64,000 nucleotides of DNA from contig LNIY01000071.1 of the NCBI GenBank assembly GCA_001449105.1, positions 1 through 64,000 of the forward strand. Reading direction: 5' to 3'. Shown here piece after piece: positions 5,524 through 11,930 of this stretch. The notes under the pieces were generated by a model that saw only the letters and a list, made by a program, of their open reading frames with translations, did no database searches and had not been told where the DNA came from. Every line of letters begins with the position of its first letter. Within the stretch, counting starts at the first letter, position 1. Source of the stretch: Caulobacter vibrioides. Its GTDB lineage: Bacteria > Pseudomonadota > Alphaproteobacteria > Caulobacterales > Caulobacteraceae. The position numbers and the translations under genes were made by a program.

Positions 5524-5720
5524 TTCTCGTTGGGCGGAGATGTGGCTTGACCGCTGCCGACTGTCAAGCCGCTGCGCGTTGTGGGTGGCGTCGTGGCTGC
5601 GCCTGCGCTATACGCCGCCGCGATGACCCGCACGCCGCACCACCATGGCTGCCACCACCATCCGACCTCGCCTCGCGGGATCGGCCGGGTCCGCACGCTC
5701 TAGAAGCCGAGCGACCCTGC

Positions 5721-5747
5721 CAAGCCCCGCCTAGCGGATGGGGCTTG
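5721..5747 (+). other. Stem-loop in the hisS leader
   Basis: CAAGCCCC and GGGGCTTG form a perfect 8-bp stem around an 11-base loop, ending 46 bp before the hisS start. No T-run follows, so it is not a simple terminator. The rest of 5524-5793 shows no gene. The hairpin could be a leader structure of the his transcript or the terminal hairpin of something upstream; its function is unknown. Confidence 0.35.
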
Positions 5748-8425: not shown

Positions 8426-9384
8426 CCACCGACACCCCGATGATCTTCGCCATCCCCTCCAAGGGCCGCCTGAAGGAACAGGTCGAGGCCTGGCTGGCCG
8501 AATGCGGCTTCCGGGTCGAGATGACCGGCGGCGCGCGCGGCTATTCGGCCGAGCTGTCGGGCCTGCCCGGCGTCTCGGTGCGCCTGCTGTCAGCGGGCGA
8601 CATCGCCGCCGGCCTCGACAGCGGCGACCTGCACCTGGGGGTCACCGGCGAAGATTTGCTGCGCGAGCGCGGCGACGACATGGACAGCCGGGTGATGCTG
8701 CTGCGGGCCCTGGGCTTTGGCCGCGCCGACCTGGTGGTGACCGCGCCCAAGAGCTGGCTCGACGTCGACACCATGGCCGACATCGACGAGGTCGGGCACC
8801 TGCACCTGGCCAAGACCGGCCGCCGCCTGCGGGTGGCCACCAAGTACGTCACCCAGACCCGGGCCTTCTTCGCTCGCCACGGCGTGGCCGACTACCGCAT
8901 CGTCGAGAGCAGCGGCGCCACCGAGGGGGCCCCGGCCGCCGGGGCGGCCGAGCTGGTGGTCGACATCACCACCACGGGCGCCACCCTGGCCGCCAACGGC
9001 CTGAAGGTGCTGTCGGACGGCGTCATCCTCAAGAGCCAGGCCCAGCTGACCGCCTCGCTGGTCACGCCGTGGACGGAAGGCCAGCTCGACAGCCTGGCCC
9101 GACTGCTGTCGGTGGTCGAGGCCAAGGGCCGGGCCCGCACCCTGGCCACCCTGGTCTGGCCGGCCGAGCAGGACGCGGCCGGACAGGCCGCCGTCGCCCC
9201 GTTCGTCGAGGCCGGCGGCTCCCGTCGGGCCAACGGCGTCCTGCTGGCGACCGGCGACCTGTTCGCCGCCGCCACGGCCCTGGCGCAAGCGGGAGTCGAG
9301 CCGGTCACCGTCTCGCGTCCCGACTATGTGTTCGAATCCCGCTCGGCGGTGCTGGAGGCTCTGAAAGGTCGCCTCAAAGGCTGA
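8422..9384 (+). CDS. hisG: ATP phosphoribosyltransferase, catalytic subunit
   Basis: Catalyses condensation of ATP with PRPP, the committed step of histidine synthesis. The N-terminal catalytic part shows IPSKGRLKEQ near 11, DLHLGVTGEDLL near 69, VATKYVTQTRAFF near 137 and the PRPP-loop-like stretch ELVVDITTTGATLAANGL near 175-192. At 320 residues it is much longer than the short-form HisG (roughly 200-230) that normally needs HisZ. The extra C-terminal 110 residues end in VEPVTVSRPDYVFES, where long forms carry the regulatory domain. The ATG overlaps the hisZ stop by four bases. Confidence 0.93.
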   Translation: MTTDTPMIFAIPSKGRLKEQVEAWLAECGFRVEMTGGARGYSAELSGLPGVSVRLLSAGDIAAGLDSGDLHLGVTGEDLLRERGDDMDSRVMLLRALGFGRADLVVTAPKSWLDVDTMADIDEVGHLHLAKTGRRLRVATKYVTQTRAFFARHGVADYRIVESSGATEGAPAAGAAELVVDITTTGATLAANGLKVLSDGVILKSQAQLTASLVTPWTEGQLDSLARLLSVVEAKGRARTLATLVWPAEQDAAGQAAVAPFVEAGGSRRANGVLLATGDLFAAATALAQAGVEPVTVSRPDYVFESRSAVLEALKGRLKG

Positions 9385-9386
9385 TA

Positions 9387-9404
9387 TTTGACGAGCGCGT
9401 CAAA
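9387..9404. other. Short inverted repeat directly after hisG
   Basis: TTTGACG and CGTCAAA form a perfect 7-bp stem with a 4-base loop, starting 3 bp after the hisG stop. There is no T-run on the plus strand, so it is a poor intrinsic terminator. A diverged copy (TTTGACC..GCGTCCAAA) lies at about 9430-9448. It belongs to the repeat cluster that continues to 9719. Confidence 0.4.
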
Positions 9405-9719
9405 AATCAGCGAACCGAACGGTGCTTAGTTTGACCAAAGCGTCCAAACTACGGGGCTGATGTCAAAAAAACGTCGAACCCCTTATGGAATCTAGATCGT
9501 TGCCGTTGACACGATCTCGGTTTTGCCGTTTTCTGACTGGGCAAGAGAGAAACGGGTCCACAGAGAACCCCCTCTCTTCGGCGTTTCGGGGAGGAAACGC
9601 CCGCCTAGATCGAATGATCGAGAAATAGCCAGACCCGCTGCGTTTATCCCCCGCAGCGGGTCTTGGTGTATCTGGGCCCTAGTTTCCATTTTCGACAAAA
9701 GAGTCAAAAACGACGAACG
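9399..9719. repeat. Three degenerate direct repeats around a hairpin region
   Basis: The motif GTCAAAAA-n(2-5)-CGAAC occurs at 9399-9416, 9462-9480 and 9703-9719. The first and third copies are similar over about 29 bp and enclose the stem-loop block at 9495-9663. The arrangement could be the remains of an inserted element; that is inference. Confidence 0.4.
9495..9663. ncRNA. Possible structured RNA: run of stem-loops
   Basis: No convincing gene is seen between hisG and 9874, but this stretch folds repeatedly. GATCGT/ACGATC lies at 9495-9516. TTGCC/GGCAA at 9523-9544 may be an alternative fold. AAGAGAG/CTCTCTT with an inner GGGT/ACCC lies at 9543-9579. GGCGTTTC/GAAACGCC lies at 9580-9601 and AGACCCGCTGCG/CGCAGCGGGTCT at 9631-9663. 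On the minus strand the 9580-9601 loop reads CTCCCC, resembling the anti-ribosome-binding loops of alphaproteobacterial sRNAs. Strand, ends and expression are unknown. It matches no RNA family I recognise. Confidence 0.35.
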
Positions 9720-9873
9720 CGCGTTTGAGCGCGGCCTTGGGTGCGGCGTGGCCCTTCAGGCCAGGCGATCCATATCAAGCCGCGCGCAGATCCAGATCAA
9801 TTAAAGATTGAGCTATGGCCTGCCGGCTCGCTTCGACCTACCTTCGCCACAGGGATGTCGATGGGGGACGAGC

Positions 9874-10602
9874 ATGCCATTTCCGCTGATCATATTGGCC
9901 TTGGGCGCCTTGGTTTCCGGGGCCGTGGTGAGCAAGGGCGCCGAAATGTACGGCGACAATGCGATCAAGGAGGCGGAAGCTGAACTGAAGAGCACCGAGC
10001 TCTACGTGGAGGAGAAACGAGCCGTCTTCGCCAACACGCGCAAATCGTATCTTGAGCGCATCGTCTCCTACACGACCATGATCAATGCGATCGCCGGTGA
10101 CGCGATGCCGAGCCAGAGCCAGGACTTCGATCGGATCCCGGACGAGATACGAGCGGCCTGGGATCTGGTTGCGGATCAGGTCCGGTCAATGTCCAGGCTG
10201 GGGGCGCCTCGTCCGTCCGCGTGGACCACGCGCGACAGGGACATTCAAAGGACCCTGCTCGGTGCGTCCCGTGTCTTTCCCAACCTGGGTCCGGTCATTG
10301 CCTTCGCGAGCATGGCCTATGCCGTCCACGGCGGCGTCAGCCATGCCTTGAAGGGGGCGGAGTTCAGGGAGAAGGCGCTGGCCCAGGCGACTGAGGCCCG
10401 CAACGGAGCTGACAGTCAGGTCCGGACGATACAGGCCGCCTTCGAGGAGATGGGGGCCAAGTTCGATCTATTGATCGTACCGTGGCTGCGCACGGCGCTG
10501 GGGCCTCCCCGCGATGAGGGAGCGCTGGTTTTTCTGCGCATGGCGTCGTCTGAACTGGCCGAAGAGGCCAGGAGGTTGATGCGGGATTTCGCCGATGAAT
10601 GA
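9874..10602 (+). CDS. Hypothetical membrane-anchored helical protein (first gene of a pair)
   Basis: Not recognised. The ATG at 9874 is chosen for the GGGGGAC ribosome-binding site just upstream; an upstream TTG at 9808 is less likely. Of 242 residues, 1-22 (MPFPLIILALGALVSGAVVS) form one hydrophobic segment, a membrane anchor or uncleaved signal. A charged helical, coiled-coil-like part follows at about 30-65. A Gly/Ala-rich weakly hydrophobic stretch (NLGPVIAFASMAYAVHGG) lies near 150, then more amphipathic helix to the end. No catalytic motif is visible. The stop overlaps the next start by 8 bp. Rare-looking codons (ATA, CTA, CGA) are commoner than in neighbouring genes, suggesting transfer. 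Function unknown. Confidence 0.65.
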   Translation: MPFPLIILALGALVSGAVVSKGAEMYGDNAIKEAEAELKSTELYVEEKRAVFANTRKSYLERIVSYTTMINAIAGDAMPSQSQDFDRIPDEIRAAWDLVADQVRSMSRLGAPRPSAWTTRDRDIQRTLLGASRVFPNLGPVIAFASMAYAVHGGVSHALKGAEFREKALAQATEARNGADSQVRTIQAAFEEMGAKFDLLIVPWLRTALGPPRDEGALVFLRMASSELAEEARRLMRDFADE

Positions 10603-10948
10603 GATCCTGAACATACTTCCCGTCGGCGCCGAGGCCGCGACCATCGAGAAGCTGGCCGACGTAACGGTGAAGTATCTCGAGTATCGAGGGGAGTGCGAGA
10701 AATGGCGGGGGCGGATCGAGGCGCTCAATCTGGCCTTTGCACAGCACGGCCGGTCCGAACGGGTGGCGCTTGAGGAAAGGCGGCTCTTTATCGAGCTGAC
10801 CAAGTTCACGATCGAGCTCTACATCGCGACAGGCGAGCCGGATAAGGCGCTCGAAGTGTTTCGGGAATGCAGCGCCAGAACGCCCGATTTCCTCGGAACC
10901 GTGCTTACCTTGATCAAGGGCAGGAGCGAGGCGGCGGTCGAGGCGTAG
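10595..10948 (+). CDS. Hypothetical small helical protein (second gene of a pair)
   Basis: Not recognised. A 117-residue soluble protein predicted to be almost all alpha-helix, with no signal peptide or membrane segment. It is rich in charged residues, and the segment LYIATGEPDKALEVFREC resembles a single TPR-like helical pair. It overlaps the previous gene by 8 bp in another frame, so the two are translationally coupled and probably work together: a membrane-anchored component and a cytoplasmic partner, by inference. Convergent with the MarR-GNAT gene 40 bp downstream. Confidence 0.6.
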   Translation: MNEILNILPVGAEAATIEKLADVTVKYLEYRGECEKWRGRIEALNLAFAQHGRSERVALEERRLFIELTKFTIELYIATGEPDKALEVFRECSARTPDFLGTVLTLIKGRSEAAVEA

Positions 10949-10988
10949 AGCCCTATCTGGGCCTGCGTTTTCGGGCGTGCCTTGGGGC

Positions 10989-11930
10989 CTAACTCGTCTT
11001 GCAGAACCCCAGATCCAGGGACCAGATCTGGTCGACCAGATCCTGGCCGAACCGTCGGCAGGGCGTCTCCTCGATCACCTCGAACCCGGCGCGTTGATAG
11101 AGCTTCCGCGCGGCGTTCAGGGCGGTGACGGTCCACAGGTCCAGTCGCTGGTAGCCCAGCGCCCGGGCGCGGGCGACGCAGGCCTCGACCAGCAGTCCGC
11201 CGACCCCCATGCCGCGCGCGTCGGGCTCCACATAGAGCAGGCGCAGCTTGGCGGCGCCGGGCGTCTCGCCGCGCACCAGGAAGATCGAGCCGACCATCCG
11301 GCCGTCGGCCTGGGCGATCCAGGCGTCGTCCCTGGCCGGATCGAAGGTCTGGTGAAACCGGGCGACGATCTCGGCGATCAGGGCCTCGTGGTCGCGGCCC
11401 CAGCCGTATTCGTTCGCGTAGAGCAGTCCCTGGCGCGCGACGACCATGCCCAGGTCGCCGGGCTCCAGGCCGCGCAGCGTCGCCTCTGGCGGGGCGTCGT
11501 CCTCGAACACCGCGGTGATGTCGCGCGCCGCCGCCAGCAGGCGGGCGCGGCGCAGCGGGTGCAGGCCGTCGATCAGGCCGCCGACGCTGGCCTTGGTGTT
11601 GGTCTCCAGGGTCGCGAAGGCGGAGCGGCCCTCGCTGGTCAGCGACAGCAGCTGGTGGCGCCCGTGGCTGGGGCTTTCGCGCGCCGTGACCAAGCCGCGC
11701 TCGGTGAAGCGCTTGAGGGTGCGGCTGACCTGGGCCGGATCCAGGCCCAGGGCCCGGACGATCTCGGCGGCCACGGGATCGGTCCGTGTCGCCAGTTCGT
11801 ACAACACGCGAGCTTCGCTCAGCGTGAACGGGCTGCCGTCATAGCTGGCGTCCAGCAGGCCCAGCCGGCGGGTGGAGGTGCGGTTGAAGGCCCGCAGGGC
11901 TGCGACGTCGTGATCGTGCGGCGTGGTCAT
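10989..11930 (-). CDS. MarR-family regulator fused to a GNAT acetyltransferase
   Basis: A 313-residue two-domain protein. Residues 1-145 form a MarR winged helix (FTLSEARVLYELATRT, DPAQVSRTLKRFTERGLV). Residues about 155-313 form a GNAT domain with the acetyl-CoA loop LRLLYVEPDARGMGVGGLLVEACVARA split over two strands and a helix, ending in ARKLYQRAGFEV. MarR-GNAT fusions are a known bacterial family; the acyl acceptor is usually unknown. The ATG at 11930 follows GGAG at short spacing. The 63-bp upstream gap is strikingly AT-rich and contains repeats, suggesting autoregulation. Confidence 0.88.
   Translation of the reverse strand: MTTPHDHDVAALRAFNRTSTRRLGLLDASYDGSPFTLSEARVLYELATRTDPVAAEIVRALGLDPAQVSRTLKRFTERGLVTARESPSHGRHQLLSLTSEGRSAFATLETNTKASVGGLIDGLHPLRRARLLAAARDITAVFEDDAPPEATLRGLEPGDLGMVVARQGLLYANEYGWGRDHEALIAEIVARFHQTFDPARDDAWIAQADGRMVGSIFLVRGETPGAAKLRLLYVEPDARGMGVGGLLVEACVARARALGYQRLDLWTVTALNAARKLYQRAGFEVIEETPCRRFGQDLVDQIWSLDLGFCKTS

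Follow-up and report, generated by a model that had tools for sequence, protein, structure and literature searches.

The interval that follows hisG in this Caulobacter vibrioides contig is a composite, to which we assign a probability of roughly 0.75: an old part built around the small RNA gene crfA lies beside a newly gained pair of orphan genes. It spans positions 9385-10948 of the window, which is the whole 64,000-nt stretch of DNA analysed (Table 1), and across it GC content falls from about 0.73-0.75 to 0.57-0.64. Judged by sequence comparison, positions 9385 to about 9736, on the left, are native rather than foreign, and the CrfA RNA is outside the acquired cassette. The repeats, hairpins and two overlapping genes that the sequence-only reading had listed are all present in 9385-10948. 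Its proposal of a horizontally acquired cassette holds for the two genes, which have lower GC and occur in one of 75 genus genomes, and fails for the repeats and hairpins, which are crfA and its flanks and are kept genus-wide. Most of the interval is explained by a known sRNA and a gene pair seen in one species, and it would represent a junction of an old element (crfA) with a new one (the gene pair). The CrfA sRNA is known already; what is added here is the surrounding palindrome array and, in this genome alone, the downstream gene pair. The palindrome array around crfA is the part of the interval worth pursuing.

Table 1. Features in and around the interval downstream of hisG (positions in the window)
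Feature	Positions	Strand	Remarks
Palindrome site 1, TTTGAC-N6-GTCAAA	9387-9404		12/12 half-site matches; 3 nt past the hisG stop
Palindrome site 2, TTTGAC-N6-GTCcAA	9430-9447		11/12; additional to the repeats noted earlier
Lone half-site GTCAAAA	9462-9468		Second of the repeats noted earlier; by eye in locus sequences
Possible -35 box of crfA, TTGACA	9506-9511	+	By eye; kept in near relatives
crfA, CrfA sRNA gene	9541-9676	+	The hairpin array noted earlier; Rfam RF01527, 147.2 bits; fold z -4.4
GGGGAGGAAA loop	9588-9597	+	Complementary to the UUUCCUCCCU element of SisA-D sRNAs, by inspection
Downstream palindrome, TTcGAC-N6-GTCAAA	9691-9708		11/12
Stretch absent from the four nearest syntenic relatives	9737-11007		Left edge 9731-9750 and right edge 11007-11014, depending on the relative
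Orphan gene A, 242 aa	9874-10602	+	Hydrophobic segment at the N terminus, remainder helical; ATG preceded by GGGGGA
Orphan gene B, 117 aa	10595-10948	+	Helical; residues 73-100 resemble a TPR below threshold; 8-nt overlap with gene A

The CrfA RNA after hisG

The run of stem-loops picked out earlier at 9495-9663 corresponds to the Rfam family CrfA. The covariance model RF01527 matches with 147.2 bits (E 5.7e-27, cut-off 38) over model positions 1-136 of 136, and both score and full length place the RNA in the family. For 9541-9676 the predicted folding energy is -60.1 kcal/mol (z -4.4), and equal stability was reached in none of 200 shuffles. The family cut-off is exceeded by CrfA in 73 of the 75 genus genomes, among them all 60 good ones; completeness is 61% and 74% in the two genomes without a match. 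A mixed set of 61 relatives contains 37 members of the genus, and exactly these 37 score over the cut-off. That set has 39 CrfA places, and the 30 loci analysed here, one of which is this genome, all have hisG on the upstream side of crfA.

A 20-nt core with a G/A-rich sponge loop is identical in 30/30 loci. By inspection, GGGGAGGAAA forms nine Watson-Crick pairs and one G-U pair with UUUCCUCCCU, so that the G/A-rich loop also has the complementarity to the UUUCCUCCCU element of alphaR8 sRNAs that is expected of a CrfA member. Passages of a 2025 paper describe CrfA as a carbon-starvation RNA sponge that soaks up SisA-D sRNAs; loop pairing with the UUUCCUCCCU element, carbon-starvation induction and SisA-D turnover are there shown in C. 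crescentus (PMC12559287). Hfq binding of CrfA in C. crescentus is covered in passages of PMC11005374. On inspection of its letters, the loop in the window fits the published SisA-D sponge pairing. The full-length match, the sponge loop and the genus-wide location after hisG are as in the CrfA of Caulobacter (RF01527; PMC12559287), and no difference was seen in the RNA itself. crfA is a genus-wide starvation sRNA gene placed after hisG, the product of which soaks up SisA-D sRNAs and steers Caulobacter from feast to famine. The Discussion of the 2025 paper describes transcriptional regulation of crfA as still to be determined (PMC12559287), and passages of PMC3073932, PMC4287350 and PMC11005374 name no regulator of crfA. 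A sigma-70 scan with fixed rules reported no promoter-like site for crfA or for the gene pair within 9380-11000. A second Caulobacter sRNA family, CC3513 (RF01528), occurs elsewhere in the window at 5570-5739 on the minus strand (83.7 bits, cut-off 40), before a hisS-like gene.

A gene pair probably gained downstream of crfA

Synteny across the genus divides the interval in two: the crfA part is conserved and the gene pair is confined to a single genome. Four nearest syntenic relatives, with HisG 98.1-98.8% identical and a shared MarR-GNAT-like neighbour (named by eye), mark the boundary closely. Homology with them stops at 9731-9750 and resumes at 11007-11014; between these edges their sequence is 165-217 bp long and includes palindromic DNA such as GTCATCCCGG...CCGGGATGAC, and the window has about 1.27 kb. 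The suggestion that an acquired cassette included an RNA component is contradicted by this comparison, in which crfA and its flanks can be aligned with all four relatives up to the left edge. Because crfA and its flanks are also kept across the genus, the repeats and hairpins do not belong to the acquired cassette. A dispersed repeat was considered for the relatives' palindromic stretch and set aside, since the window contains no further copy by BLAST with one copy as query.

Two features expected of an acquired island are seen in the pair, namely its occurrence in 1 of 75 genus genomes and its third-position GC (.78 in gene A and.80 in gene B against.90-.96 in 10 neighbour genes). The pair is probably a recent gain: one lineage would have acquired about 1.27 kb with the overlapping orphan genes just past the downstream palindrome, which is the putative downstream operator of crfA. 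It is unlikely that there was no gain and that the pair is an old one lost elsewhere, or is fast-evolving or newly arisen. With no donor or homologue found, the direction of change is judged only by distribution and composition, but relatives that are this close have a short interval at the same place and third-position GC is at least 0.1 below that of the neighbours, both of which favour a gain. No integrase or transposase was found among the ORFs. A 17-nt direct repeat with 82% identity (9669-9685 and 10954-10970) has one copy at the 3' end of crfA and the other at the right border of the orphan pair. It was rejected as an attachment scar and is probably due to chance, because the sequence shared with the relatives runs on from 9686, to the right of the left copy, to about 9736.

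Gene content on the downstream side of crfA differs between species. Junctions were surveyed in 20 genomes with longer flanks, this genome included, with ORFs called by a simple script rather than a gene finder. The gene next after crfA varies by species and includes M13 peptidase, GH95 glycosidase, and LysR and AraC regulators (Pfam, single members); MarR-GNAT and TonB-type genes are further neighbours named by eye. Two other genomes have genes with low third-position GC and no Pfam or PADLOC match right after crfA: three genes with values of 0.72-0.75 in G030 (L077 1131-3481), and one gene with a value of 0.77 in G032 (L078 821-1276). Gains at the crfA junction may therefore recur.

Palindromes around crfA

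The three degenerate repeats reported earlier at 9399, 9462 and 9703 are real and consist of GTCAAA(A) half-sites. They belong to a palindrome, TTTGAC-N6-GTCAAA, that has two copies upstream and one downstream of crfA in addition to one lone half-site; the repeats at 9399 and 9703 are right arms of the first and last copies. Sites 9387, 9430 and 9691 are the sole 18-mers in the 64-kb window with at least 10/12 half-site matches. Among the crfA loci, which are related so that counts are not independent, site 1 has at least 10/12 matches in 29/30 (exact in 23), site 2 in 26/30 and the downstream site in 30/30. Only 43 of 6000 shuffled upstream segments had a site with at least 10/12 matches. The lone half-site is present by eye in loci L002-L025 and is not evident in divergent loci L026-L031. 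Information per position is 1.62-1.96 bits in half-sites, 0.28-0.41 in spacers and 0.54-0.89 in flanks, based on 30 related, non-independent loci. For these values, and for the arm changes and outer-site distances given below, each site was the highest-scoring 18-mer within a narrow range with at least 9/12 matches, a choice that somewhat favours weak sites.

These sites are very probably protein-binding sites, as predicted from half-sites that are conserved, spacers that are free, fixed places beside one gene and rarity elsewhere. Half-site conservation with free spacers and no compensatory change points to recognition of the DNA by protein rather than to an RNA hairpin. The palindromes would otherwise be RNA hairpins that act as terminators or processing signals of the hisG and crfA transcripts, and all three are indeed inverted repeats within or beside transcribed sequence, with one after hisG and one after crfA. 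Such a role is very unlikely: the arms are conserved by sequence, none of 74 changed arm cells is compensatory (32 are at site 2 and mostly represent one fixed deviation, GTCCAA), a mismatched arm is retained at site 2 and a scan reported no palindrome as terminator-like. We read the palindromes as an operator array of a putative transcription factor that is almost dedicated to crfA. Several observations weigh against operators: the fixed GTCCAA arm makes site 2 asymmetric, the exact palindrome is absent from 23 of the 75 genus genomes, and one-mismatch and looser copies occur away from crfA in the numbers given below.

Searches of the 75 genus genomes found the exact palindrome at 80 places in 52 genomes (forward-column sum). 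Among 75 listed of these 80 exact places, 67 are at crfA, as assigned by eye against CrfA coordinates, and 8 are elsewhere, each in a different genome. A backward control gave 15 places. Exact sites away from crfA are therefore at background level. With one mismatch allowed, five close genomes have 32 places, 15 at crfA and 17 elsewhere, compared with 13 in the control; two sites present in every one of the five genomes account for 10 of the 17. A looser form of the palindrome occurs at five places in this genome, three of them away from crfA, and at none in the control. The two conserved one-mismatch sites away from crfA may belong to other factors. One (L072 2532-2549, which is G000:C77:20031-20048; 5/5 close genomes) is 58 bp upstream of where a GH3 glycosidase gene probably starts. 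The other (L073 2523-2540, which is G000:C145:5822-5839; also 5/5) overlaps, in this genome, the start of the longest IclR-type frame and lies 42 bp before a beta-lactamase-fold gene. The written-out palindrome had no match in the literature searched, which did not include the 2010 CrfA paper, and no candidate factor for it was identified there.

One dimeric transcription factor, serving almost only crfA, could bind the palindromes and set the starvation response. The E. coli regulator RutR recognises a palindrome of the TTGACCA type, and DNA looping between operators occurs with Lac, Gal and NagC. The crfA array would resemble multi-site operators of such dimeric regulators in having dyad half-sites, a 6-bp spacer and more than one copy, with the transcription unit lying between copies. 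It differs in that those systems have known regulators, whereas the factor at crfA is putative, as is the looping, and its spacers are free. Between the outer sites, the distance is 302-304 bp in 26/30 loci, 272-273 bp in 3 and 313 bp in 1; the 272-273 and 313 bp spacings occur in divergent loci L028-L031. A DNA loop of about 304 bp round the promoter and gene, opening on carbon exhaustion, is a tentative possibility. Helical phasing of the outer palindromes was tried as a rule for these distances and did not hold: 304 and 273 bp are near whole turns (273 bp is 26 turns of 10.5 bp), but 313 bp does not fit, nor does 292 bp in one genome, and phasing is left as an idea. It is rather improbable that a carbon-sensing factor of crfA's own loops about 304 bp round the whole sRNA gene and that the orphan pair past the downstream operator is under the same starvation switch. 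A conserved palindrome that is almost restricted to crfA provides ready bait with which to fish out the crfA regulator.

The probably acquired part and its two proteins

The whole of 9385-10948 had been viewed as a single horizontally acquired cassette, with an RNA perhaps working with both proteins. GC is depressed across the entire interval (0.57-0.64 against about 0.73) and the RNA and the two genes adjoin, but crfA and its palindromes are kept in 73/75 genus genomes and 30/30 loci, 29 of them without the gene pair, and CrfA already has a separate published role, so that a single cassette is extremely improbable. In the composite reading, the acquired part is the stretch that holds the two overlapping genes, which are present as described earlier, at 9874-10602 and 10595-10948. 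It is hardly credible that they are chance frames in moderately GC-rich DNA: ORFs of at least 242 codons did appear in 136/3000 shuffles when length only was considered, and the two have no family match, but not even one ORF of at least 110 codons with third-position minus second-position GC of at least 0.28 appeared in 3000 dinucleotide shuffles, and here two adjoining ORFs both qualify, the first preceded by a ribosome-binding-like GGGGGA.

GC by codon position is.63/.47/.78 in gene A and.62/.41/.80 in gene B. A score for the codon choice of neighbouring genes ranks the gene A frame best of six. Gene B scores -0.173, tied with a minus-strand frame that has one stop (-0.150), and is not singled out. 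The greater use of rare codons that had been noted is borne out, with ATA, CTA and CGA making up 8 of 359 codons in the pair and 13 of 4067 in the neighbours. The N-terminal hydrophobic segment ascribed to the first protein is likewise clear (Kyte-Doolittle 2.2 over residues 1-19), with weaker segments within residues 127-159.

Neither protein of the orphan pair has a known relative. At E 0.001, gene A was found only in its own genome among 61 relatives, 299 order genomes and 75 genus genomes, and gene B only in its own genome among the 299 order and 75 genus genomes. A class-wide search for gene A (385 genomes, E 0.1) gave matches in 37 other genomes (best E 0.004, 17.8 bits), which are short, fall in different regions of the protein and are taken as chance rather than as homologues. 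Protein searches of plasmids and phages with gene A gave nothing usable (best E 3 and 2), and neither did PDB sequences for the pair. Scans of viral and genome contigs, which depend on an initial exact match to a short peptide and detect only close relatives, found no relative of the pair. No match was found in Pfam (above cut-off), NCBIfam or PHROG, and neither protein hit any PADLOC-DB family at E up to 10. Gene B was considered as a TPR protein and rejected, with one TPR_14 repeat at residues 73-100 scoring 22.7 bits against a cut-off of 23.5 (E 1.4e-4). The gene A model (mean pLDDT 46) is too weak for a structure search. The gene B model (pLDDT 66) matches only generic helical hairpins, with best E 2.1 in Foldseek and best Z 6.3 (rmsd 2.1, 67 aligned) in VIA-align, and no fold is claimed.

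The genes most likely encode a membrane-anchored helical protein and a small helical partner, as a putative acquired accessory pair. Partnership of A with B is inferred from their 8-nt overlap only; protein B could bind or restrain membrane-anchored protein A. An accessory role, for example of defence or toxin-immunity type, is hypothetical and somewhat doubtful. Unlike defence-type islet pairs in variable junctions, the orphan pair has no match in PADLOC, Pfam (above cut-off), NCBIfam or PHROG and no mobility gene was seen among the ORFs; it is similar to them in being sporadic, lower in GC, overlapping and located at a content-variable junction.
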